From Cinnamomum chago (lineage: Eukaryota > Streptophyta > Magnoliopsida > Laurales > Lauraceae): 64,000 nt of DNA. A model generated the notes under the pieces. It made no database searches, was not told the origin of the DNA, and saw only the letters and a list, made by a program, of their open reading frames with translations. Location: assembly GCA_038049695.1 (NCBI GenBank), contig CP142460.1, positions 40,222,501-40,286,500 of the forward strand, given 5' to 3'. Made by a program: the position numbers and the translations under genes. Positions 10,818 through 64,000 of the stretch are shown here, piece after piece; the stretch's first letter is position 1; every line of letters starts with the position of its first letter.

Positions 10818-10967
10818 TGTTGACACCAAAAAAGTCACCATGCCTCCTCAACATCAAGAAGCTGCATCCTACTACAAACAGGTAATGCTACTTCAAGCAT
10901 CAGATCTTGTCAGAATCAAACAAAAACTGCAAGATCCTCCAAAACAACCGAAAGATGGGTACAAATG

Positions 10968-11770
10968 AAGTTTCGGGCCATTTTAACATCATTTGGCCTA
11001 ACTTCACTCCTCCAACAGCTGAGCAGGCGCTCCCATGGCGGTGAAGCCAGAGACCCTGACACATAAAACAGAGCACACAGCTAGCCCCAAGATGCCACTA
11101 GGAGGCTCTACATCAAGTTTCAGGCCATCCGACATCATTTGGCTTGACTTCACTCCTCCGGCAGCTGAACAGGAACTCTTGGCGGCGACGGCGTCAAAGA
11201 CATCAAAACTTTGATTAGAGCCCACGGATGGTCTCAAAATACATCCAAAAGGCTGCATATCAAATTTCAAGTCAAACCGACAACGTTTGACCCTCCATTA
11301 ACCCTCAAGCAATAAAATCAAGCCTCTCGGCAGCGAGAACTATTGAGGTCATCACTCATCAAACAGAGCAGATGTGTGGCTTCAACATGCTTCCAAAGGA
11401 TTGCACGTCAAATTTCAGGTCATTCTGACAACGTTTGACCCGACTATGACACTCCGAAATAAAATCAAGGCTACCCGGCAGCGGAGCACCCCGGGACCAT
11501 GACATCCAAATCAGAGCTAATGGATCATCTCAAAATGACTCCAATAGGCTCCCTGTCAAAATTCAAGTCGAACGGACATCGGTTGACCATACATCAAAGC
11601 GCGACATCTTCCCCGCGGCAAAATCAAGTCTACTGGCGATAGGACCCCACACAAACTCAAACAAAAGCCCATGGCTGGTCCTATCCATTGCTCAGGAGGC
11701 TTTACCTCAAATTTTGGGTCATTCTGATATCGTTTGACTTAGTTTTGACTCTTGACGGAAAATCGGCTAC
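10968..11770 (+). repeat. Six diverged 148-bp tandem repeats in U3
   Basis: A shared block (tcaaatttcaggtcattctg followed by a GTTTGACC-like core) recurs. The core lies at 10991, 11138, 11285, 11433, 11581 and 11732, so the spacings are 147, 147, 148, 148 and 151. The 3' LTR repeats the pattern at 63431, 63577, 63725 and 63866. Confidence 0.85.
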
Positions 11771-26148: not shown

Positions 26149-27916
26149 TGAAAGTCCTGGATCCTAACCCTAGAGGGGGGGGGGGGGGGTGTGAATAGGG
26201 TGTGCTACAACATGTGACCAATTAAGACCAATTTTAACTTCTTTAAAATTAAACTAGTCACAAGTGATGATAGACAAACAAAATGCGGAAGCTAACAAAG
26301 AGAATCACCACAACGCATGCACCATCACACAAGGATTTATAGTGGTTCGGCCTCAATGCCTACATCCACTACCGGCTTGTGATCCAACACCCCACCGGAT
26401 TTCCACTATCTATGCTTTTCAATAGGATAAGCAATAACCTTTACAACGTTGTTTTTCTAGGCTAAACAACAACCTATCAATGTGCTTTTCTAGGCTAAGC
26501 AATAACCTTTACAAGATGCTTTTCTAAGGCTAAGCAATAGCCTCTACACTATGCTTTTCTTAGGCTAAGCAATAACCTTTACAATAGAAAAGATTTCTCT
26601 TAAAGAAGTGTCTACAAAAACACTCAAAGAGATACAATTAAAGCTCAAATACAATGCCTCTTAAATAGGCGGATATGAAAGTGAAAAGCTAACTCACACA
26701 AACACTAAATGAATGCAAAGGTGTATGCTCATGATGTGTGTGTTTGTGATAACTTCAATCAAGTTAAAAAGTAAGATCTATCAATATATGCTCAAAGCAT
26801 TTAAAAGTTTAAGGCACATAAAAGATTTTGATTGAAGTGAAATGCAAATCACATGTATGGATACAAACTTGTTAATGATATGAAAATCAAAGGCTCACAA
26901 GTTGTTTGAAATTAATTAGCTTTAAACATGTGATGCATGTGCAATGTTGTTTTCAAAACTAAACAAGTTTAACTAAAGTTCAAATGAATGAAAACAACAA
27001 ATAAAGATTCAAACAAGTAAATGAATCATGCTATAAAAAAATCAAAGATTTTGGCTAACCATGATTAAAAAAGATTTTAAAACAACTTAATTTGAAATCA
27101 AGGTGAAGAATCCAATCCAACTTAGATCAAAGATTAAATGAAGAATGGATTCAACACATCACAGTTAACATGCTAAAAATCATTTACCAAAGATTTAAAC
27201 AAAGCATCTAACATATGATTAAGAAAGGTAAAGCTTACTTAGAGATTTAACTTCATTAATCCAAGCTTTAGCTTTCCAAAAGACCCCTTGGTCTCTCTTA
27301 GTTCATCCCCTTTGTCTTGTCTCCAAACACCTCAAGGATGGCTTAAAAATTTCTAACTTTGGCAAAGGAACGAACTTAATTTTATAGCCAAAAATTGCCC
27401 AATGGCTAGTCCCCGGTCGACCTGGCCTTCAACAGTCATAAAACTGACCGTTTGAAAAGAGCAGCAACGGCTCTTTACCCGGTCGACCCGCAGTGGGCTC
27501 GGTCGTCCGGGTCCCCTGGACCGGTCGACCGGTCACATTGCAGGTCGACCCGGGCCTGGGACCAAAATCCCCTAAAATTACATATTTCAAAGTATTTTCA
27601 TGTGGGGACTTTTGGGCCATTAAATCAAGCTTGGAATCATGATTTAAATCAAACTAAGAGGGTTAAAATCATGAAACATAAAAAGCCTAAAAAGATTTGA
27701 AAGATTTAAAACATAGGCAAGCTTGATTTGGTAAAACTTCTTTTCAAAACAAATTGCATCCAAGTTTAAAATCAAAACATGCATAAATCAATATTTCTAA
27801 CAATGCATGTGAAAATCAAGATTTCAAGATTTTTGTAAATCAATGCATGCGAAAATTCAAATGATGCTAAAATGATAATGCATCCATCAAATTGTAATAA
27901 CACAAAATCCCTAACA
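26149..27916 (-). repeat. 5' LTR of copy 2
   Basis: 1768 bp, nearly identical to 17600-19377. It carries a poly-G run (about 26176-26190) that is short in the other LTR, five minisatellite units, and one GGTCGACC motif fewer in the palindrome cluster (27415-27550). Confidence 0.93.
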
Positions 27917-39325: not shown

Positions 39326-42300
39326 TGTCACGCCCCCGAAACAGAACCTCGGGGGCGGGAGATGGGATTAAGGAATAATTGTATTTTACTTCTCCGAGGA
39401 TCCGCGTGTGTGAAGACAACACATCCCAACACATTCTGAATATTTTGCGGAAGCATTTGTGGCGTTGCGACCCGAAGTCCGTGGCCATCGGATTCCGCGT
39501 CGCACTCAACCTTTAGCATATAGCTAATATATCAAGAATCATATCAGACTGGAGTAACCAACACAATAAATTACAGAGCTGACAGTCACAGGATATTACA
39601 TTCCCAAATATGTTCAAGTTACAATTATCAATGTACATTAATTAAGAATCCCAAGGAAAAAGGCTAACAAAAGCCATACAACAAGAAGCTATAAACTACT
39701 ACCCAAATGTGACGTAGCTCCGATGTCGAGCTCAATGTCTACATGACATAGCCGACAAAACAACCTGCAAGGCATGGCTCCACAGCCAACAAAACACTCA
39801 ACTCGGGGCGAAGAAATCTGAACCTGAGTACCAAAAGTAGTGGGTCAGACACGACGGTCTGGCAGGTGGATGAAAAGAACACAATATAGCGAATAATAAT
39901 ACAAATGATAAATCATGCTATTTGCTCAAAATGCTGCATATAATTAAACGGGTGCAAAGTCGGGAATCTCGGGGAAAACTTGTATTCATTTCAAGCACGG
40001 GCAAAACATGAACATCTAATAAAACATGTGTTCGTTTGCATCATCTATAATCATAGATGTTTGACAATCGGGTGTTCGTCTAAAACATGTATAAATATAG
40101 CAATCTGGCAAAACCAAAGTCCATTTGAAAGATATGTGAAAATACAGATATTTAATAAAACTGGGTGTTCATTTAAAACATATCTCAAAGCAGGGATATT
40201 TAACAAATCGGATATTCATTTGAAACCGGTATAAACACAGTGATCTGGCACAACAAGTGTCATTTGAAACATATTTCAAAGCATGGGTATTTGACAATTC
40301 GGGTGTTCATTTAAAACATGTGTAATCACATAAATCTAGTAAAACAATCGATCATTTGAAACATATGTAAAAGCATGGGTATTTAACGAATCGGGTAATC
40401 ATTTAAAAACATGTGCGGGTACAAAGAACAGAAAACAATATAATAATAACTGAATTTACATTGGAGAATATTAGCACTTGTTTAAATAACAACTTTCATA
40501 AAGGAAACGAATCATTTATCGGAAAGCAAGTAAGCAATATAAAACATATCGGGTATCCAAGGAATCGGGAACTGGCAAGGTGGCAATCACAAGAAGCTAA
40601 GTCCTCTATCACCGAAGTGACAAGAGCGGGACGTTGGTCTCAGTCACACAAGGTGAGGAGACTCAACGTAAATCATATATACAATATAAATATACGGGAA
40701 CGGGAACGGGACCACGGTAGCGAACCGGGTATCGGGACGGGACCACGGCAATAACCGGGTATCGGGATCCAAACTGCAGCTGGCGGGACGGGAGAGGGAT
40801 TTCCAAGTCAGTGGATCAGACTGGCAAGGTATCCAAGCTTAGTGATGCCGACTCATAGGATAAAACCAATCGAGACATATCAAGTAATCAAGTACAGTAA
40901 ATAAACGGGTAAACGGGGGTGCTCAAGGGCACGTAAATAAACGGGTAAACGGGGGTGCTCAAGGGCACGCTGTCATATCATATCGGGCAATACATTTAGG
41001 GACAATAACTGTTACTAGAGTAACTTCAATGCTTTCGGGAAAACGGGTCATGTAATGCAAATCTTGGAAAAAGAGGTGAAACAATGAACTATAACAATTG
41101 CGGGTAAACATATCGGTTTCAAGATCTATTTAAGTGAATAGGGGTCCCGTATGTCGATTATAACAATTACTTGGTACTCCTTGAGTTTAAAGACATTCCG
41201 GCCTCCTTATGCACTTTTACGATTTCCCAAAATTTCGAATGACATATTTGTGATATGGTTTCTTTCTCGAATGGCCTCAAGCAATGCCTAATGAATCCCC
41301 TTCGATTGACAAAGCTCAACGCTCGAACGAACCGGAGAGTTCGTTCGAGTGGGGAGCTTTTCGAGATCTGAAGAATTTCGGTTACCTTGCGGTTAGCTGG
41401 CGGTTAGCCGCCGATGCATTCGGCGGTTAGCCGCTGGGTAACCGTGGAGCTGACCGAATTTCAGGTGAGAATTCTGATGCTCTCGGGAAAAGGAACCGTG
41501 ATTGTGCGGTTGTCTGGCGGTTAGCCGCCGATGGGTTCGGCGGTTAGCCGCTGGCTAACCGTGAGGCTGACCGCGTTTTCAGGTGGAAAATGATGCTCTC
41601 TGGAAAAGTCACCGCGGTGCGCGGTTAGCCGCCGATGCATTCGGCGGTTAGCCGCTGGCTAACCGTGAGCTGACCGCCAGTTACGAAAATGCTCACTGAG
41701 TTCAGTTTTGGGTCATTTTCCTCCTCAAAACCATCTTCCTCACATCCACAAAGTCCTTACAATAACATTGAGCTAATAGTTCCTCCAATGCAACTATCTA
41801 CACTTCTCCACAACTCCAATATGGGTTTATTCCATCACCTCATCCATCAATATCAAGTCCAATGCAATTAAAGAAAGAAGGAAACCATTTCACAATAGGG
41901 TACATTTGATATAAGCAAGAAGAAATTAAATGACATTCACCAATACACTTATAAGACATAAATGCACTACCATGAGTGCACTACCAAAGCTCTATCATGG
42001 GCATTTATTTCAAACCAATGTAATAAATAGACATGAGTGAAAAGCACCAAAATCATTGAAAGCTTATAAAGATCAAAACATCCACTTGCATTTCTCTTCC
42101 AAAATCACTTCAAATCCTCATTAAACTCCAATGAACAATTAAATTCAAACACCTCTTTAAATGAGTATCAATTCAAGTCAATGTGACTTATAACATAACC
42201 ATGAATAGCCAATCCAACCTCATTCCTTATAAAACCATATGAACAAACTTGACTAAATAAAATGCATACATTCCCAAGAGTTCCAAGAGATTTAACAAGA

Positions 42301-43408
42301 GAGAAAAACCAATTCATATGCATTTCGAAATCAATAGAAATGTGACAAGAAGCATATGTACAAACATGTATCCAATGATCAAGAACAAGTAATAAAACTT
42401 AAGATTTTCTCATAAAACTTAATAACATTCAAACCATCCATTCATCCACTTGCCTTTGACTCTAATCAAGCAAATCAAGCTCCTAATCCCTTCTCAAGCT
42501 CAAGATCCACAACCACTACAAAAACCCCCAAAACAAACCCAAAAATGGGTTAAACAATGAATTGACAATGAAACTTCTCAATAATCAAGGTGGAGCTTCT
42601 CTAAGGCTAGTAGATTACAAATCTAGAAGATGGGAAGAATCACTTACTTGGATGACTTTCAAATGAGAAGAACAAGCTCAAGGAAGGTCTCAATGTTGAT
42701 GGATTTCTCCAAAAATGCTATCAAGATGAAGCTTGCAAGGAGAGGAAGAAGAAGACGGTCTCCATTTCGAGTTTGGTGAACTATTGGTGTGGCTTGGAGA
42801 TGAAGAAGCAAGAAGAAGAAGAAGTTGCACAAGGGGAAAACCCTAGGTTCAGCTGGAACAAGAAAATGGAGAAGGAAGGGGAAGGGTCTCCTTTTATAAA
42901 CAAGTGAGAATGGGTCCCACAACTTAAAGAACTTGGGTGGCTGAAATCATCTAATTCGGGACCTCGGATGGATTCGACGAAGAAGGAAGAAATGATCGTC
43001 GAAATATCTAGTTTCCAAAAAGTGTATGTTTCATGGATTTCGAGAATATCGAGTTTTGGGTACAGATTTGGTGTGAAAAGACTGTTTTGCCCTCAAGGCC
43101 AAGAAATCGGTTTTCGGGTTCTCAAATGGATATGGGATCAACATGAAAGTTGTAGGATTCCTCAAGATGAATGCAACGGGCCAAAAACACAATACGAAGC
43201 AAATCGGGAAAATCTCACAAGTAAATGCAAAGCCGAAAAAGGAACCCCCAAAGGGCCCCACAAGCTACCAAAGTACTCAAAAGCCCAAAACTAGAAGAAA
43301 ACTCATTCTAGCTCACAAACTCAACCCAACAACTACTAATCCCACTAAAAGAACTAATCCACAATTAAAACAACACTAATCCAAGAGATTAGGGGTCGGG
43401 TTCTCACA
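39326..43408 (-). mobile_element. Solo LTR C (4.1 kb), TSD GATAT, inside the CACTA element
   Basis: On the + strand it begins TGTCACGCCCCCG and ends GGGTTCTCACA, flanked by GATAT at 39321-39325 and 43409-43413. It is a diverged relative of solo LTRs A and B and reads on the - strand. It has a TATAAAAG box at 42898-42891, a GTAAGT donor at 42647 and a hairpin array at 41390-41685. It is about 1 kb longer than A and B, partly because of a repeat array at 39960-40430. There is no internal region, primer site or second LTR. Confidence 0.88.
39960..40430 (+). repeat. Tandem repeats (about 115 bp, two half-units) unique to solo LTR C
   Basis: Phrases TCATTTAAAACATGT and TCATTTGAAACATAT alternate with AAGCATGGGTATTTGACAA across 470 bases. 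The array is absent from A and B. A separate 35-bp direct duplication (AACGGGTAAACGGGGGTGCT) lies at about 40900-40970. Confidence 0.75.
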
Positions 43409-46134: not shown

Positions 46135-48690
46135 TTTAAACCTGTTTAAATAACAATTTCTATAAACGAGATAAAACATTTATTCAAATACGAGTGTGCA
46201 TTATAAAACATGTAAGGTAACCAAGGAAACGGGAAACAAGCAAGATGACAACCACACGAAGCTAAGTCCTCTATCACTAAAGTGACAGAGCAATAACTAG
46301 GCACTGATCTCAGTCACTCGAGGTGAGGAGAAACAATGGATCTTATAAATACATATACATATACTATACATGACCATGGTAGCGAGCCGGGCATCGGGAA
46401 CCACAGTAGCAATCTGCGGCAACGGGACAAAACCACGGTAATAACCAGGTAGCGGGATCCAAACTACAGCTGGCGGGACAAGAGGGGGATCTCCAAGTCG
46501 GTGGATCAGACCAACAAGGTTATCCAAGCTTAGTGGTGCTGACTAATAGGTCAAATAACAAATCGAGACATGTGCAAGTAAATCAAGTATAAATAAATAA
46601 ACGGGCAAGACGGGGGTGCTCAAGGGCACACTGCCGTTTCATGTCGTGCAATGCACTTCAAGACAAGTAACTATTATAAGTGTAGTTCAATGCTTTTGGG
46701 AAAACAAGACATGTAGGATAAATCTCGGGATCAATAAAGTACAATAAACAATTGAAATCTCGGGTAAAGTATCTGGTTCAAAATTTATTTGAAGTGAATT
46801 GTGATCCCGTATGTCGATCTAATAATGATTTGGTACTCTTTGAGTTTGGGGACATTCCGGGCTCCTTATACACTTTGAATTTTCAAAACTTCGAGTGACA
46901 TCTTCGTGATATGGTTTCTTTCTCGGATGGCCTCATACAATGCCTAGTGAATCTCCTCTCCGGAATGGTTGTCTGGGTAATTTCGGTTACCTTGCGGTCA
47001 GATGGCGGCTAGCCGCCATTGGATTCGGCGGTTAGCCGCTGGCTGACCGCGGTTGGCCTGACAGAAAGACAGGTTACTGGAATTGTAATCGAAATGGTTC
47101 GGTTGGCTGGCGGTTAGCCGCCGATATGTTCAGCGGTTAGCCGCTAGCTAACCTTGTTCTCAGGAGAAAATGTTGCTCTCTAGAAAAGCAACCGAATGGG
47201 TCGGTTGGCTGGCGGTTAGCCACCGATGGTTTCGGCGGTTAGCCGCTGGCTAACCGTGTTTTCAGGTGGAAAATGGTGCTCTCTGGAAAAGTAACTGCGA
47301 CTGTTCGGCTAGATGGCGGTTAGCCGCCAGTCACCAGACGGCTAGCTGACAGGTGACCGCTGGCTGACCGCCAGGTGCGGGAAACACCCACTGTGTTCAG
47401 ATTTGAGTCCATTTCCCTCCTCAAAACCACTCTCCTCACTTCCACTTACTCCTTGCCATAAAGCTGAGCTAAAAGCTCCTTCAATGCAACTATCTACATT
47501 TCTCCACAACTCCAATATGGGTTCATTCCATCACCTCCTCCATTAACATCAAATCCAATACAAATAAAGAATGAAGGAAACCATTTCACAATAGAGCACA
47601 TTTGGTACAAACAAGAAGAAAATAAATGCCATTCACCAATATACTTATAAGTCATAAATGCACTACAAACTCTATCATGAACATTTATTTCAAACTAATG
47701 CAATAAATAGGCATGAGTGGAAAATACCAAAATCATTGAAAGCTTATAAAAATCAAATCATCCACTTGCCTTGGGTCTTCTAATGAGCAAGTCAAACTCT
47801 TATACTCTTCCAAGCCAAAGATTCAAGCTATGGATAGAATCCCCAAAACAAACAAACCCTAAAATGGTCAAACGATGAAATAGAAAGGGAAACCTTACAA
47901 TAATGAAGATGAAGCTTCTCTAAGGCTAGAAGAATACAAATCTAGAAGAAGGAAAGGATTACTTACTTGTAAGGTCCTTTAATGGCAAGAGTAAGCTCTA
48001 TGAAGATCATGGAATGGAGGGTTTTCTTCACAAATTGTATCAATAGAGAGCTATGGTGATGAGGAAGAGAATGATAACCTTCATTTTGATGTTGGTGCAA
48101 GATTGGTGTGGATTGGAGATGGAGAGAACAAGAAGGAGAAGAAAAGTTGCCAAAGAAACCCTAGGCTGCCTTTTGTGCTGGAAAAAGAAAAATGAGGAAG
48201 ATGGGTCTCCTTATATAAGCAAATGGAGATGGGTCCCACTACTTAAGACACTCAAGGGTTGAAATCTTGGCTTTCAGGGCTTCTATTGAATTCGACGAAG
48301 TAGAGAAAAGTAATCGTCGAAATATCTAGTTTCCAAAAAGTATATGTTTCGCAGGTTTCAGGAATATCAAGTTTTGGGTACAGATTTTGTGTGCAATGAC
48401 TGTTTTGCCCTCAAGGCTATGAAATCGGGTTTCGGGATCTCGAACGGGGATGAGATCAACATGAAAGTTGTAGGGATTAACAATACAAATAAAACGGGAT
48501 TAAAACGATGAATGTAAAAATCTCCGATAAATCCTCAAGCGATTGCAAGGTCATAAAGAAGGAACCCCCAAAGGCTTATCAAAAGTTATTTCAAGCCCAA
48601 CCTAACCAAAATCCACTAAACACGCTTAGAACTAAAACACAACTTAATCAATACTAATCGAGTTCACTCGGGTCGGGGTCTTACAGTACC

Positions 48691-49895: not shown

Positions 49896-50545
49896 TTGGA
49901 GACACCTGCTAACTTAGAAGACCCTACGTCTGCTTCCTTCATCGTTCCGGTAACTTTGGCAGAAGAAAAGACAATCTTCTTCCACAGATCAGAAGCCTCT
50001 TCACTAAATTCTTCGCTTGAACCATTCCAAAATGAAGCTATCATGAAGAGAATGGGCTATGATGCTCAGAATCCAATCGGTTTGGGAGGAGGCCGTGGTA
50101 TTCTCACACCATTGGAACCCACCCTGACCAAAAGTCAACTGGAGGATTGGAAACTCCATCGTAATATAGACAAGTCTTCATACAGGTTGGGGTATGATCC
50201 TGACACTCCCATGAGACAGTTGGCACAAAGGCTGCAAAGTCGTTTTGCCGACCAAGCCTCAACATCTCGTGTCCATGAAGACATTGATCTCCCTGGATAT
50301 CTCTTTGAGGAGTCACCCGTCAACGATCCAGGAAGCTCTTCCAATTGGTATGATTTCTCTGTCGATGAAGAGGAATTGTCTAATGACACAAACGCGCGGT
50401 TTTCTGGCCCAGGAGAACCATCGTTTACAAAAGAAGTACCCTACTTCGACCCAGTTTCAATAGGTGATTGGGATCATCTCGTTGCAAGTCTTGAGAAGAT
50501 ACCGATCAAGAAGACCCATGGACAAAAGCAAAGCCTTGGTTTGTA
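49896..50545 (+). pseudogene. G-patch-like linker of the giant Tat element
   Basis: An open frame of 216 codons carries MKRMGYDAQNPIGLGGGRG at about residues 50-68, then TPLEPTLTKSQLEDWKLHR. Glycine-rich G-patch-like blocks between protease and RT are common in plant Ty3 elements and may bind RNA. The rest is acidic and low complexity. The frame ends at a TAA at 50543-50545, shortly before RT. Confidence 0.7.
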
Positions 50546-51360
50546 AATGCCTTTGGGACTGCAGAAGGTCTTGTTGAGTTGGAAGCCTCCAAAAACAATG
50601 TGGAGGAACCACTTTCAAACCTTCCAACAAAAGATCCTGTTGAAAAGATAGACCCGAAAATAGCAATCCACAAACTCAATCTGCAAAAAGATATCAAGCA
50701 TGTCAAACAAGGCCAAAGAAGATTCTGTCCTGATGTGATGGAAAAAATTAAACAAGAAGTTCAGAAACTCAAAAGTGTTAGCTTCGTCTGCGAGGAACAA
50801 CATCCTGAATGGTTGGCCAACATCGTCCCCGTGACAAAGAAAAATGGGCAGATCAGGGTCTGTATTGCCTATAAAGACTTGAATAATGCATGCCCTAAAG
50901 ATAAATTCCTGCTCCCCATACTAGAGGTGATGATCGACAATACCTGCGGATTCGAGCGAATGACATTCATGGATGGATTCTCTAGCTACAATCAGATAAA
51001 GATGCATCCTGAAGATGAAAGACACACATCATTTCGGACTCCATTGGGCGTGTATTGCTACACAGTCACGCCATTTGGTCTGAAAAATGTGGGTGCAACA
51101 TATCAGAGGGCTATGATGAAAATATCCTAAGATATGCAGCACAAGACGGTCGAATGTTATGTCGATGACCTCACCGTCAAAAGCAGAAGAAAAGACCATC
51201 TCAAAGATGTTCGAGAAGTCTTCCTCTGACTTCGCAAACACAAACTGCGGATGAATCCACTAAAGTGTTTCTTCGGTGTCTCATCGGGTAAGTTTCTCTG
51301 ATTCATAGTTTGGAAAGGCAGAATAGAACTTGACCCCACCAAAGTCAAGGCTATCCTAGA
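50546..51360 (+). pseudogene. Reverse transcriptase of the giant Tat element
   Basis: RT motifs appear in order: WLANIVPVTKKNGQIRVCIA, then KDLNNACPKDKF, MTFMDGFSSYNQIKMHPED, TPFGLKNVGATYQRAM and the catalytic YVDD at 51158-51169. Stops at about 51128, 51228 and 51300 and one frame change break it. The LPKI/DDL region reads LLPILEVMID, a small departure from the family. All three catalytic aspartates are still encoded. Confidence 0.88.
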
Positions 51361-51997
51361 AATGCCATCTCCAAGAACCCTAAGAGAACTAAAAGGGCTT
51401 CAAGGAAGGTTGGCATACATTCTACGGTTCATCTCCAATTTGTCAGGGAAGTGTCGTCCATTCTCTCACCTAACGAAGAGAGGTGTGGACTTTATTTGGG
51501 ATGCTGAATGTGAAGCCGCATTTCAAGATATCAAGACATACGTGACTAAACCTCCAGTGTTGCCTGCCCCAACAGCTGGAAAACCATTCATCTTGTACAC
51601 AAGAGTTCTCGATTACTGCTGGCACAAGAAAACGACGAGGGAAAAGAAGCTGCTCTATATTACCTTAGCCGCATGTTGATAGGTGCAGAGCATCACTACT
51701 CTTCAGTCGAAAAAGAATGCCTTGCAGTGATGTTCGCCGTACAAAAGCTGCGTCACTAACTGCTGTCCAACACAGTATACTTGATTTCGAGGATCAATCT
51801 TTTAAAGGTCCTTGTCACGAAAGTAGGTTCTCTTAATACACGATTGGTAAAATGGTCTATCCTTCTGTCGTAATTCGATATTTGGTATGTACCATAAAAG
51901 GCAATCAAAGGGCAAGCTCTAGCAGACTTTCTTGCAGAGCATCCATTACCTAAGGATTCTCCACTGAGGGATGATCTCCCAGACGAATCTATCTACA
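51361..51997 (+). pseudogene. First RNase H (connection plus RNase H1) of the giant Tat element
   Basis: It begins with the thumb/connection phrase FSHLTKRGVDFIWDAECE. After a frame change at about 51610, blocks like YYLSRMLIGAEHHYSSVEK and ECLAVMFAVQKLRHY follow, then GQALADFLAEHPLP. Stops at about 51758, 51871 and 51894 break it. In Tat elements this domain is usually degenerate because the second RNase H took over. Confidence 0.75.
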
Positions 51998-52785
51998 ATG
52001 TGGAAACTTCCTTACCAAATTCTTCTTGGGACATGTACTTAGACGGCGTAACCAGGACAAATGAAAAAGGAAAGCCAATATTGGAATTTGGCATCCTCTT
52101 TGTCAGTCCCAACAAAGACATGATTCCACACGCTTTCTCGCTACTGGAACCATGTTCAAACAATGCAACTGAATATCAAGCCCTGATTGTGGGATTGGAA
52201 CTCGCCCTCGAATTTGGCATCACCACGCTGGAAGCTTTTGGGGACTCTCAACTGATCGTTAACCAGATGAATTAGAAATTTCAAGTCAGGAAGCCTGATC
52301 TGTTGCCTTACTACAGCTAGGTACAATCACTTCGGCAAAAGTTTGACATCTGTCACATCACCCACATCCTCAGAGGTGAAAACATCCATGCAGAAGCCTT
52401 GGCCGGACTCGCCGCATCTGTGGCAATCCAAGAAGGAGAAAACATGCAAATTACAGTGTGTCAAAGAAGGATTCTCCTTCCTCTTAACACACACCAAGCA
52501 GTTGCTGAATGCCACCAAGTAGTTGGAAGTCGGATGTCCATCCTCAAACCTCCGATAGGTGACTGGAGGGCTCTGTTCATTGATTACATTATGTTTGGAA
52601 TCCTACCTGAAGATCCAAAAGAGTGGGTAAGCATTCAAAGACGAGCCCTAAAATCTCATTTGGATATTCCTTCAAAAATGCTTTACAGAAAATCCTTCAA
52701 CAGAGTACTTCTATGCTGCTTGTCACAACAAGAATCCGAGGAAACTCTCAAAGAAGTACATGCTGGTCTTTGTGGATCTCATTAG
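51998..52785 (+). pseudogene. Second, archaeal-type RNase H (aRNH) of the giant Tat element
   Basis: WDMYLDGVTR, then CSNNATEYQALIVGLELALE and FGDSQLIVNQMN give three catalytic acids (D, E, D) in the expected order. After a TAG at 52273 the domain continues to NIHAEALAGLA, where the fourth acid is normally aspartate (ADALA) and here is glutamate. This extra RNase H is a Tat-clade trait. The tail leads into the integrase zinc-finger region. Confidence 0.8.
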
Positions 52786-53798
52786 GTTGGTCCTAAGCTC
52801 TACGATTAGATAAAAAGGTTGGTAGCAGATAATATGCAATTTGCTAAACGCTGCCGATAGTGCCAAGTTCACGGAGATTATGTCCACAAGCCTCCAGAAT
52901 GGCTACATCCGACAACGATCTCATGGCCTTTCGAAGCCTGGGGTATGGACATCATAGGTCCTATCTCTCCCCCATCAAGGAAAGATCATCGCTTCATCTT
53001 CGCCACTACGGATTATTTCTCTAAGTGGTCAGAAGTATTTGCGCTCAGCAAAATGAAGACCTCATCAGTCCTTCAATTCTTGCGCACCAACATTATCTGT
53101 CGCTTCGGCATACCTAAAAGATTCATCCATGATAACGGACCACAATTCAGGGATCACAGATTCTATAAGTTTTGTGACAAGTATAAAATCCAAAGTTGTC
53201 CTTCGACTCGATATAATCTAGTAGTGAACGGACTAGCAGAAGCCTTTAATAAGGCACTCTGCAAAATTCTCAAGAAAATGGTCTCTAGTCACAAAAGAGA
53301 CTGGGGCGACAAACTACCTAAAGCTTTGTGGGTTTATCGAACCACCGTTCGAGGACCAACCCATAGCACACCATTCTTTTTCGTCTATGGATGCAAAGCT
53401 GTTGTCCCTTTAGAAGTACAAATTCCTTCCTTAAGGGTATCTTTGCAAAATGACATGATGCAAGAAAGCAATGTCAAATTGAGACTACAAGAGCTGGATA
53501 ATCTCGATGAAAGACGGCTTGAAGCTCTACAAAGCATTGAGCGTACCAAGCACGTATGGCAGGATCTTTCGACACGAAGGTTAGGCAACGCACCTATAAA
53601 ATGGGTGACATGGTTCTTGCAGTAAAAAGGCCAATGGTTTTCGCCCACAAATCCAAAGGCAAATTTGAGCCAAAATGGGGGGGACCATTCGTCATCGACA
53701 AAGTCTTCTCCAATGGCGCATATGCTCTCCTAAACATGGAGGGTGACAGATGTATGTTGCCCATCAACGACAAATTCTTGAAGCGGTACTACCCTTGA
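52741..53798 (+). pseudogene. Integrase of the giant Tat element
   Basis: The HHCC finger starts at EVHAGLCGSH (about 52755) and continues through RCR-stop-CQVHG, with stops at about 52783, 52807 and 52858. The DDE core is open from 52945: the first Asp in MDIIGP, the second in HDNGPQF, the Glu in NGLAEAFN, with D-x35-E spacing. A frameshift at about 53560 separates the C-terminal part (GDMVLAVKRP, then KWGGPFVIDKVFSNGAYAL, to KRYYP and stop TGA at 53798). The catalytic triad is intact although the protein is broken. Confidence 0.88.
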
Positions 53799-53939: not shown

Positions 53940-54550
53940 CATAGTTTCATTGTTAAAAAAAAATCCAAAAATCCAAGTTTAGAAGCCTCTTCTCGGACTT
54001 GACCAAAACTTTTGATCCTTGAACCCAAAATTCATGGTTTGAAAAAAAAATCAGGACTCGGGAATTTCCACCCTAGTCCACCCCAACTTTTACAACCAAA
54101 AATGGTTTTGAGTGAAAATTCATGACCCTCGTGTCTTTAAACAAAAAATGGTTTTTTAGAAACCGTGGGGAAGCGACGCGCAGTCGATACTCTCAAAGTC
54201 CAAAAAATTGAAAGGATGCGAACCCTGTTCGATACTTCCAAAATTTCAAAATCGCAAGGAAGCGACACCTTGTCGTTGCTTGCAAAATTTCAAAAAATCA
54301 TGGAGACGCAACATTCCAGTTGATATCCATAACCCAAGTTTTCAAAAAAAAAAACAACCTCAAATTTCAAAAATCGTGGGGAAGTGACATTTAGTCGATA
54401 CCCGCAAAACCAAATTTTTTGAAAAGGCAAGGAAGTGATGTTCAGTCGATACTTGCACCTCAATTCACGAGGAGGCGACATTCCATCGAGACTCGCAACC
54501 AAATGAACAAGGAGGTGACATTCCATTGATACTTGCAAGACCATTCAGCA
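53940..54550 (+). repeat. Tandem array 1 downstream of pol (about 45-65 bp)
   Basis: Units like GGAAGCGACATTCAGTCGAT followed by ACTTGCAAAA recur about eight times with A-rich spacers. No coding function. Such hypervariable arrays between pol and the 3' LTR are known in Tat/Ogre elements. Confidence 0.75.
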
Positions 54551-55280
54551 AGGAGGCGACTTTTAGTCGGTACTTGCATTCTTGAAAACCAAAACCTGGC
54601 TTTTCGCCAAAAACAAAAACCAGCTTTCAAGCCAAAAACAAAACCTGGTTTTTCCGCTAAAAATCAAAATCTCAGCTTTTACACAAAAAAAAAACCCAGC
54701 TTTTACGCCAAAAATCTAAAATTTGGCTTTCACGCCAACAAAACAAAACTTGGTTTTCAAAAATCTGGCTCCTATGGCACAAAATTTCAACTTCCATGCG
54801 AAAAACAAACTTCGGCTTCCATGCAAAAAAAAAACAAATCTCGGCTTCCATGCCAAAAACAAATTTGGCTTCCATGCCACAAACAACAAAATCGGCTTCA
54901 TGCCCTCCCAAATTTTGGCTCTCATGCCATAAATCCATTTTTTGGCTTTTACGTCACAAAATTCGACTTTTATGCCACAAAATTTCGGCTCTCATGCCAT
55001 CCCAAAATTTCGGCTTTTATGCCAGCCAATAAAATCGGCTCCTATTCCACAAAACCTGGCTCTCATGCTAATACAAAATTCGGCTTTCATGCCATCTCCA
55101 AAAACTCGAGTTTCATGCCATCTCAAAAACTTTGGCTCCATGCCACAAACAAAATTTGGCTCTTATGCCACAAAATTTGGCTCCCATGCCATCTCAAAAT
55201 CCAGCTTTCAAGCTATAAAAAAAACAAACTTTCGCCACAAAATCTAGCTTTCATGCCCAAAACAACCGTTTGACAAAAGA
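54551..55280 (+). repeat. Tandem array 2 downstream of pol (about 30-40 bp)
   Basis: The phrase GGCTTTYATGCCA followed by CAAAATTT recurs more than twenty times. It keeps all three forward frames open for long stretches (the longest is 246 codons at 54533-55273), but the repeat causes this and I see no gene. Confidence 0.8.
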
Positions 55281-56382
55281 TTTTTCACAAAATGACAACC
55301 TTTTGGTCAAATTCTCAAACAAACATTCTCATTCTACTTTTGCTTATTTTCATAAAAAAGAATTTGAGTAAAAGGTATATAAAGTACCAAAAATGTTTTT
55401 ACATGGAGGTACCAAAAAAAGAAAAGAGAAGAAAAAGAGTTTGTTACAAAAACCAGGAGCTTAGTCTAACATGGTATTCAACTCCTCAAGCAGACTCTTG
55501 GCCTTAGCCTCCAAGGCTTCCAGGCCACGTTTCTTCAAAATCTTTCCATAAAATGCTGCAGAATGAGGCGATCCATCTGCAACACGGGGAAGTTCTTCCC
55601 AAAGGATCTGCCATTGCTCGTACTCCTGATCTTCTTCCAGAGATTGTTGTCAACCTCCTCTACCTGGCGAATCAGAGTCCCCTCTCTAGCACGAGCTTTC
55701 ACAACGGCGGTCCATTTGGCAGTAGCTTGTTCCTCCAATAACTCAAGACGCTGCTTGGCTTTAACGACCTCCCTATCAAGACGACGCAGGTCTTCTGTTA
55801 GCTCAATGATGGCCAACTCGGTGACATTCCTCTTTCGAACTAATTGCTTCCGAGTCCGCGAGATCTCGTTCAGTTTAGACTTGACCTTGCCAGAAGGCTT
55901 AAAAAATATGTCATTGAAAAAGTCACCGCTTGGGAAACTCTTAGTCTCATTCCACTTGTTGCCTAGAGTAATGACTTCATCAACAAAAGCCTTCGCACTT
56001 GCAATGTCCAAACCGACCTCTTTGCTATCAACAAGGATGTCCTGTACATGCTTGATCATGCCAAAGCAAGCTTCCAAATGGTCAGAAGAAAGAGTTTCGA
56101 CCCATGAACTCAAAACGCTCTTCAACACTTTCTTCGCATACTTAAGAGATGGCCCGGATGAAGGCTCGCCCCTCTCCATTGGTCGACTGCCCGTGTCATG
56201 CCCTGTTGGAGGAGTGATCATCAGACTCTTTCTAATCGGAGACACTGGCGAAGGAATCTCCTCAAAAGATGTCATCTCTGCCGCATTGAAACTGTAAGAA
56301 GTCCCTTCTTTTGGTTCGACTACAGGCTTCCCCTGCTCTGGCCCTGAGAAAGATGAGGGAACTTCTCTTGTTACCTTACAAC

Positions 56383-56857
56383 CTACCAGCAAAACAAAAA
56401 AAAAGGTATGAACATGATCTTGTTGAAAAATCATTATCATTAGGGTTATTGCTACAAATACCTTCTTCAATGATCGGTGAAATACTTTCTGCCTCCATGA
56501 GTTCATCCGAAGCATCGTCAAAGGTCACATCCAGAGATGGTTCGAAATCATCGAAATCCTGTGGTAAGTCAGCTGACAAGAAAACAAGCAACATGTTAAC
56601 AAATGATAGCGCAGACAAAAAAAAAAAAAAAACAAAAGAAACAAAATATAAAGAGATCATACCAGGTGAAGATTCTGGAATCACTCCAGAATCCCTCAGT
56701 TCTTCTTCAGATGCCGTAATCGGATCCTTCATTGCCTCATCGGCAGGAACCTCAAGCATCACCAAACCATCATCTCCCACTGAAAAAGGGAGAGAAGGCA
56801 AATCAAAACAATAAATCTCAATGAAAGAAACAGAAAAAGGAAGAGGAGGAATCATAC
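56383..56857 (-). other. Three short GT-AG introns of the antisense PMD gene
   Basis: The introns are 78 bp (56857-56780, GTATGA...TTTCAG), 90 bp (56662-56573, GTATGA...TGTCAG) and 79 bp (56461-56383, GTATTT...GGTAG). Each is T-rich with plant-like borders. Removing each keeps the acidic exon frames in phase: exon ends at phase 1 join on to the next exon in frame. Confidence 0.72.
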
Positions 56858-57275
56858 CTTCATTAACGATCTCTTCCTCTCGGCTCCTCTTTTCCGGAGG
56901 CTCATCAGCTTCCCATGAAATCTCTTCAGCAATGGTGGGAGGGACTTTTGAATCAGGAGAGTCATTGTGTCGTCTCTTATTACGGCGTTGCCCTCTCTTC
57001 CTCTTGCTTCTATGGGTCAGTTTGCTTGAAGTACCCATCCCATCACCAAAGTCAGGACGTTCGCTTGACTCCTCGCCGGATGGTCTGCTCCTCCCAGTGG
57101 ACTCCAAGGAAGCCTTCGTTCGTTCCGCTTGCATCCAAGCGTCGATCTCGGCCTCCTCCTCCTCTAGCTGTTTCAAGACCTCACTGGGTATCTCTTGTAC
57201 AGTTCCTGATTTGGTGACGTCCTGTTCACTGAGAAAGTCTATCTTGTGTTTCTCTCCAGAAAGGAAAGCCAGAAC

Positions 57276-58980
57276 TGTTAGTTTTATGGTCTCAATACCA
57301 GTATATGATAAATAAATTGATTAATTTCTTTATTTATCAATATATATTATTGCTTTCCTTTCATGAGATGAATGGTGTTTTATTACTTGTTTGCACATAA
57401 CTAATATGAATGACATAATGGTTCATGAGATGAACCGGAGTCCACAAGTATACTAAATGTAATACATGTGTATGGATGAGATCCACATATAGGAGACATG
57501 TATTACAAATCTTATACTTAAATATCTTCACAACCAGTGATGAGATTGGGCATCTCATATGACAAGGTTGCAACACTTTGATCACTATGAGATAGTGTGA
57601 TTTGTCTCGATCATCGGAATGTAAGATTATGGATCATGGTGCTGATACATTTGATGTATTGAAGGACCATGAGAAGCACCTTATATACATTGTCTTAACT
57701 TTAAGGCTTGCTCTCATAATTCCCTAGCAATAGGCTTATAATCCTGAGACATTAATGAACTCAAGTTTCTATCTATTCATTTGCTTTGAGTCACCAATGA
57801 GTGAGGCCAATTGTAGGTCAACACCTCGGTGATTTGGGTACGTGGTAGTAGAGCTGTGGGAACATTCAAAGGTCAAGATGGAATCTATCTTTAATATCCC
57901 CTTGTGCCAATTAATGGATTTATCATTGGTAAGTGCGCACCCATTCCAATTAAGAGTTAATTGGAACGGTACCAAATGATCATTATAATTGATTGGGGCT
58001 CAAGGATAATAAGATATGGATCTAATTTGGTGGACATGTCCAATTGATCCATGGATATAGATGGAGGGGCCTACTTGTGGTAATGTGGAAGTTTAGGGTC
58101 TTCATTGTAATTTATTCCTAAGACTAGAGTGCAATTGCATTTATATAGTGGAGTTATTTGCAATTGACTATGGGCCCGGATTACACATGAGATGTGAGGT
58201 CGCGTGTCCCGGTTGGAGCCAGCTTTCTAAGGAATCCCTAGTGGTCCCCACGCTAGCCCAAGTTATTAGAAAGATACTAATTCTACTTGAACTCTAAAAG
58301 GAAGGTTACTATTTCTATTTGAAGTAAGACTTCTAATAGTGGTAATAGTAAGTTACTAATTATTAATGGAAGTAGGACTTCTATTTTAATTAGTAAAAGA
58401 GGAGGTTACTAATCATATTTGAAGTAAGACTTCTAATTGTGATTTAGTAAGAAACTAATTGTAGTGGAAGTAAGACTTCTATTTCAATTAGTAAGAGGAG
58501 GTGGCTCCATATAGGGATTCACGCCCAGCCCATTTAAGTGTGCAAGAGTTGCACTCCTCTCTTCCTCTCCATCTTCTAGTTCTCTTCTAGTTTCCTTTAG
58601 GGTTTTTCTCTTGGAGATCCCACCATCTTCTTGAGAAAAGAGAATCTGATACGGGACATAGCGTGGAAGATCAAAGGGTGTTGGAGATCTTAATTTGATT
58701 AGTGAAGGTGTTCATCATCAAAGAAAGAGATCAACTTCTCCATTAGAGCACTACAAAGCTCCAAAGGTATAATCCACATCCTTGTATGTTGTGGATTTCA
58801 TGGTTGCTTGTTTAGATGCTATTTTCTATTTTCTAGATAGGTTATGTTGCTGTACATGGTTTATGAGTTTGAGGGATTGCATCCTGCATTGGGTTTGTTG
58901 CCTTCTAGATAGTTGATCCCTGCATCAAGTGGGTCAAAAGTTTTTGAAACCTATCTGAATGGCCCACCTAGTTTCCAACA
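57276..58980 (+). mobile_element. Solo LTR D (1.7 kb), TSD AGAAC
   Basis: It starts TGTTAGTTTTATGG, ends TAGTTTCCAACA, and is flanked by AGAAC at 57271-57275 and 58981-58985. There is no internal region. A CTCTCTTCCTCTCCATC leader-like run near 58556 suggests + orientation. It contains four tandem units of about 50 bp with GAAGTAAGACTTCTA at 58320-58480. The family is unrelated to A-C. It splits the antisense PMD gene. Confidence 0.88.
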
Positions 58981-61073
58981 AGAACTTCCTCTCGCCAGAC
59001 TCCGTCTGATCTGCCAAGACCCTTTTCAGAAGATTGGTTGACATCGAGCTCCTTTTTGGAAAGCCCCCGGTACACGAAAAAGCTCTCTACGAACCATTTC
59101 GTAAAGCTAACAATCCAAAAAGTGGGCAACTCAGGATAGGAAATCATGGCGGTAGTGTCCTCCGCACTGTAAAAGGCCCATGCATTCCTTCCATCCTGCA
59201 AATGTCCAAAATACTTCACCATGCTCAAAGGCACTCCAACAATGCCTTGAGAGAAGCCCAACTACAACGCAAAACGCGAGGGGACATACAGCTGGATGTC
59301 GACAAAAAGATGTCTACGGTACACCATCGTACCAATGCGTATGTTGAAAGGCCACCTCTTTTCTGCGTTTGTCAAAGAATAGTGCCTTCCCGACCCTGCC
59401 CTAGTGGAATCACAGGAGACACCAAAATCAAAAGCCTTCTTCCGCAAACTTGGAGAAAGCTTCACTAAAGATTGCCTAATCTCGACGTCCTTGAACCGTC
59501 GGATCCTCAAACGGGCAAACAAAAGTGATTCGGAAACTGCTGTCCCTCTAGCTAATCGAATCATAAAAGAATCATTATCGTGTGCAACTCCTAATCGATG
59601 GAAGCTGGGACAGTGGTACACATACCACGAATAGAAAATATGGACTGAAAATACTCTGTTCATAAGGAGCCCAAGTCGAACAAGAAAAGCAGTAGCCTGC
59701 AGTTCAGTACACATATAGGCGTAAAGAGTAGGTACCAAAGCAAGCCACTCTCCAAATGCAATTTGACAAGCTGGAAAGATACAAACGGCCTAATGTGCGT
59801 TCCATCTCCTCCAACAAAAACAGCCTCACTCAGCTAGTAAGTGAGGTAAACAACGAGATCCCTCCGCAGCACAATGTCAGAATAAATAACATCTGTGCTC
59901 ATGAAGAAGTCCTTCAAGTCTCCTCACGCGACAGAAGTCTTCTTCGAACTTGGAGTCTTAGCTCTGGCTTCCCGAGTCATGCTATCAGAAGACTCTCTGC
60001 TGTCAAAGAAGTTGGGGAACAAGGAGCCAAAACTCCTCCAATCGCTAGACCTGACTTTTGAGCCCTCATTCTCCTTAAAAAAAGAATAGAAGGCGACGAG
60101 CTGAAAGTACAAAAGCCTGAACTCCTCAAACTGCTCCTCAAGGACGCTGTCAATAGGTATGAACTCCTCATAAAGTTTGCCGAGGACGGGCAGCCCGGTG
60201 ATGGCGCTCAATTCATTCAAAGAAAAACCAATCTCACCATTCGTGACAATGAAGGTGTTGGTTTATGGAAGGAATGACTCCAACATGGCCATAAAGGCTT
60301 CATCGGAGAAAACCACGGTTTGTCGAAAAGCGCGAACCGCATTAAAGATCTCGGCCTCCTTCAGAATGGTCCCGCCAACCTGCAGGATGTGATCAGTCCA
60401 TGACTCCCAGCTTGAGTCAGAGCTGAAACGACCACGAAGTCGAAAGGGTTTCACCCAATTGCTGTTGTCACCCTGAAAAATGCCAAGGCCCATCGGTCTC
60501 AAATCGACCGATGGATGATCAGAACCTTGGTAGCCGCTGGCTGGGATCAACATGTCCATACGGACAGGCGACCTCTCTGGATAACTGGAAGGGCCGCCAA
60601 CAAAAACCCCGGTCTTGATCACATTAGTTTTCTTCACCCAGCTCGGAGGATCTTCCCTCTTAGGGCATGTGGGAGAAAGGCTCATGATCGAGATAGTGTG
60701 ATCAAAGGTTGACCGGGTAGAAATAGTTCTCTCCTCACCATTTGCCATGTAAGAGGATTGAAAACATCTCCTTTGGTATGTCAAGTTGTCAGGGACTACG
60801 TCACCAAAGAAGAAGGTAGGCTTGGGCAAGATGCTCTGATCGTCCACGACCTTAGGATGACTGCTTACCATAATTTTGTAAAACTCCTCATCCTTGAGAG
60901 CGATTAATCGCTGTCTCATCTCATCACGTTGAGGGAGTCACACTCTTCCAAGTCTCTCTCCACAAGCTGGACCTTCTCCTAGGCCTGTTGTACGACCACA
61001 TTAGGAGACCTGGTAGACTAGCGAGGTGCATCAGTAACAGGCTCTTTGTTCTTGTTCGTTCTGGAGGAACTAC

Positions 61074-62017
61074 CTGCAAAGGATGGAAAAGAAAAGATCA
61101 ATCATCACCAACATGACATAATTCTGCTAAAAATATTTTTGGCATGGTTTTGGGGCAATTTCGAAGAAAAGGGAAACACCCCAAAAAAGATAGGAAGCTT
61201 GAAGATGAGCTCAACACCACTGCAAGCTCATAGTCAATGAAGCATCCTCAAAGAAGGTTTGAACTCAAACATTGCTGCGAGATCAAACCAGTCTTATCAA
61301 ATCTCCATAAGCTTAAAGGAGGGCTCAACATTGCTGCGAGCTCCAAACTCCAAAACTTGCGAAGCTCCTCAAAATCCCGCAAGACTAAGAAAGGGCTCAA
61401 CATTGCTGCGAGCTCCAAATCCCAAAACTTGCAAAAGATTTCTAGGTATACATCATCATGCTTCCAAATCAATTTACTAAAAATCATGCATCAAAGAAAA
61501 TCATCATGCATTAGATGCTAGGAAAACTTTAACCAACGTTTTTGACCAATTCCAACCCAACTTGGTCAAAATCAAATTTTGTCTAAGTCAAAAATCATGT
61601 TGACTTGACCTAGAGACTCTAGCCTTCTATCTTGATGCATAAAAAAAAATGCATGAACATCTTGGATTGCATAAACCTCATTATCATGGTGAGCCAAAAA
61701 GAAAGAAGAAGAGAGAAAAAGAGAAATCTCTTTAAAAAAAAAATTTGGGCTGGCCCACTGGCTGTGGCCCACTACCACGTGGCAGTACGGCCAGGTCCGT
61801 ACAGCTAGAGAAGAAAAAAAAAAGAAAAAAAAAACGTGAGAAAAATAAAATAAAATAGCACGTGTAAAAAAAAGGAGAAGAAAACACGTGGGAAAAAAAG
61901 AAGAAAGAAAGAGAAAAAGTAAAGAAAAAGAAAAAGAAAAAGAAAAAGAAAAGAAAAGAAGAGAAAGAAACTTTTTCTACTTCTGTATGGAGTTTCTTGT
62001 GAAGGAAGAAAACTTAC
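61074..62017 (-). other. First intron of the antisense PMD gene (944 bp)
   Basis: The donor GTAAGT is at 62017 and the acceptor TTTGCAG ends at 61074. Inside lie about 2.5 copies of a 75-bp repeat (GGGCTCAACATTGCTGCGAG; 61255-61440) and a long pyrimidine tract on the - strand (61800-61970). No coding signal. Confidence 0.65.
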
Positions 62018-62146
62018 TTGAAGCCATGGATGAAGAAGAAAGAACTTGAAAAGTCTTGAAGAAGAAGAGAAGTTCTTGATCTTGGAGCACTCTTGAAAAC
62101 TTTTGCAAAAAGAAAGCAATATGGGAAAGAGATCCAACCTCCCTTG

Positions 62147-62154
62147 CTTTTATA
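62147..62154 (-). promoter_or_regulatory. TATA box of the antisense PMD gene
   Basis: On the - strand this reads TATAAAAG. Transcription would start near 62120, about 95 bases before the ATG at 62027. The context around the ATG (CATCCATGGCT) is a good plant start. Confidence 0.65.
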
Positions 62155-62159
62155 GATCG

Positions 62160-63248
62160 GAGAGCAAACCAAAAGAGGAAACAATGAGAAAACCAAGGAG
62201 GTAAGTGCTAAAAACTAGCAACTTTCCCAAAAGAAAGGAGATTTGAGTTATTCTCTCCTAAAGAAAAGATTCTTTGAGAAATTCTCTCCAAAAAGAAAGG
62301 GAATGAGAAATATTCCCCCCCAACGAAAGATACTTTGAGAAAATCTCTCTCAAAATCAAGGAAACAAGAGAGATTCTCTCCAAGTAATGATAGTTTTAGA
62401 TATTGTCTACCCACAGGAGATATTTTTAGATATTCTTAAAAAAATGAAACCATATGAAATCTAAGCCATCTCTAAAGGTTAAGATCCCATGGGTTAGCCC
62501 ACATGAGCCACATTTGACCACCTAGGCACTAAAAGGGGCTTCCTATCAAAAATCTCATTTACCAAGAGCATACAAAATGGTTCCACGCCTCTTTTGAGTT
62601 GATTGAACCATTCAAAAAAAAAAAAAAAAAAGCCTCATGAGTTTCCAAAAAATCCAAACCATCCAACCTCATGAACCAAATTAAGCCAAAATCTTGAAAT
62701 TGACATTCCACAAAAAACCAAACTCTGGTCCCCTAACTTGCCACATACAGCTTGTTAGGTCACAAGGCCGAAACCAAGAAAAAAAAAACAAATCCTGACC
62801 CCCTAGCTCGCCATATACAGCTTGTTAGGTCACAAGGTCAAAACCAAATCTGACCCCCCAATTTGCCACGTACAGCTTGTTGGGCCACAAGGTTAAAATA
62901 AAAAAATAAACCCCGACCCCCCTAACCTGCCACATACAGCTTGCTAGGTCACAAGGTCAAAAACAAAAAACCAAAAAAACCTCTCGACCACCTAATGCAC
63001 CACATACAACCTTTAGGTTCACAAGGTCAAAAGGAAAACCCAAAATCCAACTCCCTTATGTCATTTTCAAAACTTTGCTTTGAGATGGTACGTGATCCCT
63101 CCCACTTCCATAGAATCCCCATGGAAACTCAAAAGGCTATACAAAAAAAAAAGAATGCTCAAAGACTCTTGGTCAAATCAGAAGCCCTCCTTTAAGTTTC
63201 TCTTGGAGGCACAATGACTCCGAAAGCTACTCGTCATTGTACCTCGAC
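62160..63248. repeat. Spacer before 3' LTR with a 57-70 bp tandem array
   Basis: From about 62700 to 63030 the phrase CCACATACAGCTTGTTAGGT plus CACAAGGTC occurs five times (anchors at about 62744, 62813, 62869, 62933 and 63003). The part 62160-62690 is A-rich with TTCTCTCC/GAGAGA repeats. There is no gene on the + strand. Confidence 0.7.
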
Positions 63249-63252: not shown

Positions 63253-63256
63253 CATT

Positions 63257-64000
63257 TGTTGACACCAAAAAAGTCACCTTGCTTCCTCAACATCAAGAAG
63301 GTGTATCCTACTACAAACAAACAATGCTACTTCAAGCATCAGATCTTGTCATAATCAAACAAAACTGCAAGATCTTTCAAAACAGCCAAAAGATGAGTAC
63401 AAATGAAGTTTCGGGCCATTTTAACATCATTTGGCCTAACTTCACTCCTCCAACAGCTGAGCAGGCGCTCCCGTCGGTGGTGAAGCCAGAGACCCTAACA
63501 CATAAAACAGAGCACACAACTGGCCCCAAGATGCCACTAGGAGGCTCTACACCAAGTTTTAGGCCATTCCAACATCATTTGGCCTGACTTCACTCCTCCA
63601 ACAGCTAAATAGGTGCTCCCAGCGGCGACAATGTTGGAGACATCAAAGCTTCGATCAGAGCCCACAGATGGTCTCAAAATACCTCCAAAAGGCTGCATGT
63701 CAAATTTCAAGTCAAACCGACAATGTTTGACCCTCCATTAACCCTTAAAATCAAGTCTCTCGACGGTGAGAACTATCGAGGCCATCACTCATCAAACAGA
63801 GCACATGAGTGGCTTCAACATGCTTCCAAAGGGCTACACGTCAAATTTCAGGTCATTCTGACAACGTTTGACCCGACTTTGACGCTCCGAAAATAAAATC
63901 AAGGCTACCGGCGGCGGAGCACCCCAGGACCATGACATCCAAATTGGAGCTAATGAATCGTCTCAAAATGACTCCAATAGGCTCCCTGTCAAAATTCAAG
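63257..64000 (+). repeat. 3' LTR of the giant Tat element (start only)
   Basis: It begins TGTTGACACCAAAAAAGTCA and aligns with 10818-11574 to the end of the window, including four of the 148-bp repeat units. A 7-base loss shortens one spacing to 141. The rest of the LTR is outside the window. Confidence 0.92.

Follow-up and report, generated by a model that had tools for sequence, protein, structure and literature searches.

A predicted multi-intron plant mobile domain gene antisense to a decayed Tat-type retrotransposon in Cinnamomum chago

Described counterparts of the locus

Extra open reading frames (ORFs) encoding a plant mobile domain (PMD) are found in 57% of Ogre elements (Neumann 2019, PMC6317226), and the PMD-A clades (PMD-A1/A2) are confined to gypsy elements (Ikeda 2017, PMC5418596). 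Here we analyze a 64,000-nucleotide stretch of the genome of Cinnamomum chago (contig CP142460.1; hereafter the window) in which a gene assigned to the PMD family lies antisense to a decayed Ty3/gypsy element of the Tat type and appears to consist of five exons separated by four introns. As in Ogre and other Ty3/gypsy elements, the PMD is coded by a gypsy element of an angiosperm; the Ogre ORFs, however, are frames of at least 250 codons collected with a plain ORF finder, and the accessible text of that study describes no multi-exon antisense gene (PMC6317226). The domain is also shared with the host proteins MAIN and MAIL1, the genes of which help to silence transposons (PMC5418596, PMC7156037).

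Antisense genes are known from several other retroelements. Gene23 of the maize element Grande (Gomez-Orte 2013, via PMC7264820) resembles the gene in the window in its antisense position between pol and the 3' long terminal repeat (LTR); it is transcribed from an upstream promoter and codes for a nuclear protein, as is proposed for the gene in the window. The available part of the review that describes it mentions neither PMD, mobile domain nor intron; the same 2020 review calls for the examination of antisense and spliced transcripts (PMC7264820). The TRP28 ORFs of Retand elements share the place, the orientation and the tandem repeats of the region, but possess the domain PF04195 (PMC11963269), whereas the gene in the window has a PMD. 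A mechanistic precedent is provided by the HBZ and APH genes of human T-lymphotropic viruses (HTLV), which are spliced antisense retroelement genes coding for mostly nuclear regulators (PMC10186651). These, in contrast, belong to vertebrate viruses, have a promoter in the 3' LTR and encode other proteins, whereas the gene in the window combines a PMD and four introns with a TATA box (at 62147) that lies outside the LTR starting at 63257. Neither PF04195 (TRP28) nor bZIP was matched in Pfam scans of the window copy and its relatives.

Antisense extra ORFs, PMDs in Ogre, an antisense promoter (Grande) and spliced antisense genes (HTLV) are already published. Aimed literature searches returned no antisense PMD gene with several introns from a plant retrotransposon; they did not cover the 2011 survey by Steinbauerova, so that an earlier description is possible.

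Layout, introns and product of the antisense gene

The sites and frames of the gene were read directly from the letters of the - strand, and those named in an earlier note on this DNA (a TATA box, an ATG at 62027, GTAAGT and four GT-AG introns) are all present. The layout is as follows.

62155-62147, - strand: TATA box CTATAAAAG, 128 bp 5' of the ATG and outside the 3' LTR, at a distance of about 1.1 kb from it
62027-62018, - strand: candidate exon 1, ATGGCTTCAA, 10 bp, ATG at 62027, followed by GTAAGT
62017-61074, - strand: intron 0, 944 bp, GTAAGT...TTTGCAG, phase 1
61073-56858, - strand: exon 2, carrying the PMD, broken in the window copy
58980-57276, - strand: insert in exon 2, 1,705 bp, TGTTGG...CTAACA (TG..CA ends), probably a solo LTR, with a 5-bp target duplication GTTCT
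56857-56780, - strand: intron 1, 78 bp, GT-AG, phase 1
56779-56663, - strand: exon 3, 117 bp
56662-56573, - strand: intron 2, 90 bp, GT-AG, phase 1
56572-56462, - strand: exon 4, 111 bp
56461-56383, - strand: intron 3, 79 bp, GT-AG, phase 1, which must be removed for exon 5 to be read in frame
56382-55461, - strand: exon 5, C-terminal part, with a TAA stop at 55463-55461

The layout at the three short introns is established by comparison with relatives, 113 of which (denoted by P numbers) were examined by matching single-exon peptides of the window and counting the residues between the matches; relatives without good peptide matches on both flanks of a junction were set aside. Intron 1 is absent in 22 of the 22 spanning relatives, the flanking peptides being separated by -7 to 3 residues compared to the approximately 26 that read-through would add, intron 2 in 27 of 28, and intron 3 in all 21, three of which also lack adjacent residues. 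The spanning relatives are all avocado gene models, that is, predictions, from two annotations (AAC387 and MRB53 names), and some possibly represent the same locus twice. The avocado models bear the prefixes Pa01-Pa08 and Pa10-Pa12, which indicates that the gene is multicopy in avocado, and the telling point for the short introns in this comparison is the recurrence of an identical junction across many loci. Exons 3 and 4 could be skipped in frame, since both are divisible by three in length and all four introns are in phase 1; one or both of these exons, or parts thereof, are absent in the avocado models P0063, P0077, P0094 and P0104.

When part of exon 2 was used as a query, 61 relatives were obtained, among which those with an organism name come from avocado, except for three bacterial labels that resemble contamination. 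The best avocado hits are 79% identical to the window copy over 90% of the query, identity reaches 90% in hits over shorter parts, and none found in this search is near-identical. Scans of viral contigs and genome contigs detected no relative that could serve as sibling DNA of the gene. Proteins of the plant family are also present in bacterial records (P0004, P0040, P0057, P0076 and P0086; the records are those of Cysteiniphilum litorale, Streptomyces clavifer, Modestobacter lapidis and Yersinia pestis) and look like contamination with plant DNA.

The product is identified as a PMD protein by profile comparison, weakly in the window copy and clearly in relatives. The frame of the window copy, with X at three stops, matches PF10536 with 27.4 bits (E 2.4e-6), below the Pfam cut-off of 34.9; none of its stop-free pieces attains the cut-off either, one scoring 16.4 bits. 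Above the cut-off are P0085 (61.3 bits, 1.2e-16), P0086 (56.6 bits, 3.2e-15, covering profile positions 1-346 of 347) and P0084 (50.3 bits), whereas P0087 (23.7 bits) and P0094 (33.8 bits) remain below it. Since P0085 and P0086, which represent nearly the whole of exon 2, match the profile at such E values, the PMD assignment made in the earlier note is right, and the HMMER check with PF10536 that it proposed speaks for it; the lack of any PMD match, which the note had named as refuting, did not occur. A basic cluster was detected with a rough pattern in 20 of the 28 relatives that cover the region, at least one of the eight misses (P0085) being a misplaced pattern match. The C-terminal part is conserved among the relatives without a Pfam match (none was obtained for P0062 and P0075, which are C-terminal parts). 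The best matches among solved structures have E values of only 0.91 and 0.84, and the structure predicted for P0085 from a 41-row alignment is of poor quality (mean predicted local distance difference test, pLDDT, of 43.2; predicted template modeling score, pTM, of 0.26).

The gene is embedded in the following features of the carrier element.

10818-11567, + strand: start of the 5' LTR, TGTTGACACC..., 90% identical over 754 bp to 63256-64000
50495-53625, + strand: pol remnants, comprising reverse transcriptase, RNase H, a second RNase H-like domain (RVT_3) and integrase
54204-55225, + strand: tandem repeats separating pol from the 3' end of the PMD gene
62712-63045, + strand: tandem repeats separating the PMD promoter region from the 3' LTR
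63257-64000, + strand: start of the 3' LTR, running off the window, with GACGGGGCATT directly 5' of it

With the pol domains and the LTR starts located, the gene can be placed 3' of a Tat-type pol and ahead of the 3' LTR, in antisense orientation, in agreement with the earlier note; this is the aORF-3R position. The Pfam matches in pol are RT_RNaseH_2 at 51302-51679 (29.2 bits, with a cut-off of 29.8), RVT_3 at 51898-52275 and rve at 52861-53625. The RVT_3 domain, which we take to be aRH, the second RNase H of the Tat lineage, is located between RNase H and integrase, the arrangement by which this lineage is recognized. The order of reverse transcriptase, RNase H, second RNase H and integrase is that of Ogre and Retand (Neumann 2019, PMC6317226). 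The end of the 5' LTR and the primer site, which in the Ogre subgroup is that for tRNA-Arg, were not located, and gag was not identified, with no Pfam match among 10 ORFs elsewhere in the window and three ORFs 5' of the reverse transcriptase. The giant size that had been ascribed to the element is not upheld: further repeat pairs, such as that of 17665-19171 and 26226-27711, sit within the LTR-to-LTR span of 52.4 kb, which therefore looks largely like the result of nested insertions.

Several other repeats were noticed in the window. The flank of the 5' LTR (10758-10817) reads, by eye, like YIDDMVV, so that the LTR is apparently inserted in the reverse transcriptase of another element. Diverged direct-repeat blocks with GGCGGTTAGCCGCC motifs are found at 40476-43188 and 46140-48506, about 5.3-5.7 kb apart, and an inverted relative of these blocks is located near 19742-22215.

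Points against the proposed gene and alternative explanations

We consider it probable that the window represents a family of Tat-type elements, here decayed, that carries an antisense multi-intron PMD accessory gene coding for a nuclear regulator. Several observations weigh against this interpretation. The window copy is a pseudogene that is unable to make the protein, in which respect the earlier note is not upheld as written: exon 2 contains six stops (61020, 60981, 60265, 59926, 59836 and 59264), two frame changes (near 60930 and 59700) and the 1,705-bp insert, the site of which is read through without interruption in avocado P0037, P0062 and others, and a third frame change lies near 55626 in exon 5. 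P0068 retains intron 2, with partly similar sequence. In favor of intron 1, by contrast, are two proteins derived from short contigs and hence independent of the avocado gene models: P0065 and P0086 (803 aa, about 780 open codons) pass the end of exon 2 and finish inside intron 1, presumably because they meet a stop there rather than the end of the contig, the record of P0086 not being marked as partial; P0067, which ends near the exon 2 boundary, and P0076 and P0085, which end before it, are uninformative on intron 1. Avocado models often add false introns, perhaps dodging lesions, and the avocado copies are presumed to be likewise antisense inside Tat elements. Two further points of this kind, on selection and on the gene start, are given below.

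The first alternative is that the PMD gene is a passenger, caught together with its introns and promoter, which brings no benefit and has kept its layout only because the copies are young. Gene capture is frequent in plant elements (PMC13317346), the window copy is broken, and many avocado models miss stretches of the PMD, which suggests lesions. This explanation is nevertheless unlikely, given the comparison of P0085 (805 aa) and P0086, both of which hold most of exon 2 open: their 736 aligned residues, with one gap and 143 differences (80.6% identity), correspond to codons that are open in both proteins. The replacements are milder than random missense changes modeled with transitions weighted fourfold (mean BLOSUM62 score 0.28 vs -0.42, z 5.2), and identity per 50 residues is uneven, ranging from 0.56 to 1.00 (p 9e-11); four further pairs, which share members, show the same direction more weakly (z 2.0-3.0). 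No nonsense change is seen in this pair where 7.8 would be expected under neutrality, although this test is biased because the database stores open frames. This indirect evidence, which comes from protein comparison and not from the ratio of nonsynonymous to synonymous substitution rates (dN/dS), suggests that selection has maintained the extra protein. The recurrence of PMDs in more than half of the Ogre elements (57%, PMC6317226) also argues against a mere passenger.

A comparably low probability is assigned to a different first exon inside intron 0, in which case the 10-bp exon and the TATA box at 62147 would not mark the start of the gene. Eighteen relatives extend to the beginning of exon 2. 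Of these, five (P0006, P0009, P0035, P0043 and P0095, from both avocado annotations) begin with M[A/T]SSSSSR, the sequence expected from the 10-bp exon, six (P0003, P0011, P0044, P0061, P0085 and P0098) begin just inside intron 0, like unspliced readings, and the models of seven (P0012, P0034, P0041, P0088, P0091, P0106 and P0109) code another stretch of intron 0. Agreement with the proposed exon is thus limited to 5 of the 18, and from this split the 10-bp exon is likely, but not settled, as the true first exon; its sites, including the TATA box, the ATG and GTAAGT, are in place. A short duplication at 61297-61435 in intron 0 resembles the stretch (ELAAMLSPF... or similar) coded in the seven models, so that another 5' exon in intron 0 is possible, although this repeat, with which the stretch overlaps, may be mistaken for coding sequence by gene prediction.

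As for the promoter that the gene was said to possess, the TATA sequence is present as a sequence match, CTATAAAAG occurring three times in the window compared to 0.77 expected (at least three in 5 of 100 shuffles). The sites are at 12687 (3' of the 5' LTR start and probably in the LTR), 18469 (in a repeat block, probably a nested LTR) and 62155, the antisense TATA box. A sigma-70 scan, which is aimed at a bacterial promoter type and has no bearing on a plant promoter, gave no match.

It is still less likely that a separate PMD-bearing element or a host gene was inserted into the window copy alone and is foreign to the family. Nested-looking repeat pairs are abundant in the window, and PMDs are known in MULE transposons too (PMC5418596). 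However, no convincing terminal inverted repeats flank the gene (of the 7 pairs detected, that which encloses the gene is 22 nt long and 82% identical), the PMD relatives are multicopy, and the position between pol and the 3' LTR is the same as that of the antisense ORFs of Retand (PMC11963269).

We regard it as very improbable that some copies read the presumed introns 1 and 2 as an open coding frame. In the window copy, both are free of stops and divisible by three in length, so the preservation of phase on intron removal, which the earlier note had cited and which does hold, is no evidence by itself for these two introns; P0068 speaks for the same alternative. On the other side, introns 1 and 2 are T-rich (55% and 62%), compared to a mean of 28% and a maximum of 42-45% in exon 2 windows of the same size, which intron 3 (44%) merely equals; moreover, the two introns are missing from the spanning relatives as counted above, and P0065 and P0086 end inside intron 1. 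Introns preserved as open coding sequence under selection, an outcome that the earlier note had regarded as fatal to its proposal, were not seen. Finally, the env-like ORFs on the sense strand opposite exons 2-5 (55470-56297, 56290-56814 and 56815-57315) are open, but the idea that these are the real gene is scarcely credible given the many relatives of the antisense frames (the only ones used as queries).

Proposed mode of action and implications

Under the interpretation as an accessory gene, the window would contain a decayed Ty3/gypsy element of the Tat type (Ogre/Retand), the family of which bears a PMD gene on the opposite strand. In working copies, the gene would be transcribed against the element from a promoter of its own, located upstream of the 3' LTR. 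About four introns would be removed behind a first exon, for which the 10-bp exon is the most likely candidate, to produce a protein of approximately 1,200 residues. This protein would consist of the PMD, a basic stretch resembling a nuclear signal, small acidic exons and the conserved C-terminal part. The genomic RNA of the element, being sense, would carry the introns reversed, with non-functional splice signals, and reverse transcription would copy them intact, while the antisense mRNA of the accessory gene would still be spliceable. That introns survive in this manner because of the antisense position follows from the rules of splicing and agrees with the occurrence of the same junctions in approximately two dozen avocado models. 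Transcription, use of the promoter and splicing in cells are what we infer from this layout.

The protein most likely would act in the nucleus as a regulator of the element, as has been proposed for other antisense proteins of retroelements; the genes for such proteins are usually interpreted in this way (PMC7264820; HBZ, PMC10186651). A more far-reaching proposal, which extends the link to silencing drawn in the earlier note, is that the family, through the antisense orientation, spreads a whole gene of eukaryotic type, including its promoter and phase-1 introns, and that its PMD protein counters or hijacks silencing by MAIN/MAIL1-PP7L, as a retrotransposon counterpart of VANC, the anti-silencing protein of Vandal transposons (PMC13317346). 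This action is suggested only by analogy, through the host PMD proteins MAIN and MAIL1 and the VANC precedent, and we regard it as speculative and rather unlikely.

Retrotransposition normally results in the loss of introns, and a family that keeps several of them through many copies would show how orientation can act as a shelter. Such elements may provide a natural test bed in which the same introns are unspliceable in the sense genomic RNA and spliceable in the antisense mRNA. The PMD is common to the element gene and to host proteins that silence transposons, and it has been left open whether hosts tamed a PMD of elements or elements took a PMD of hosts (Ikeda 2017, PMC5418596). The positions of introns in PMD genes of elements compared to those of hosts would bear directly on the direction of this transfer.

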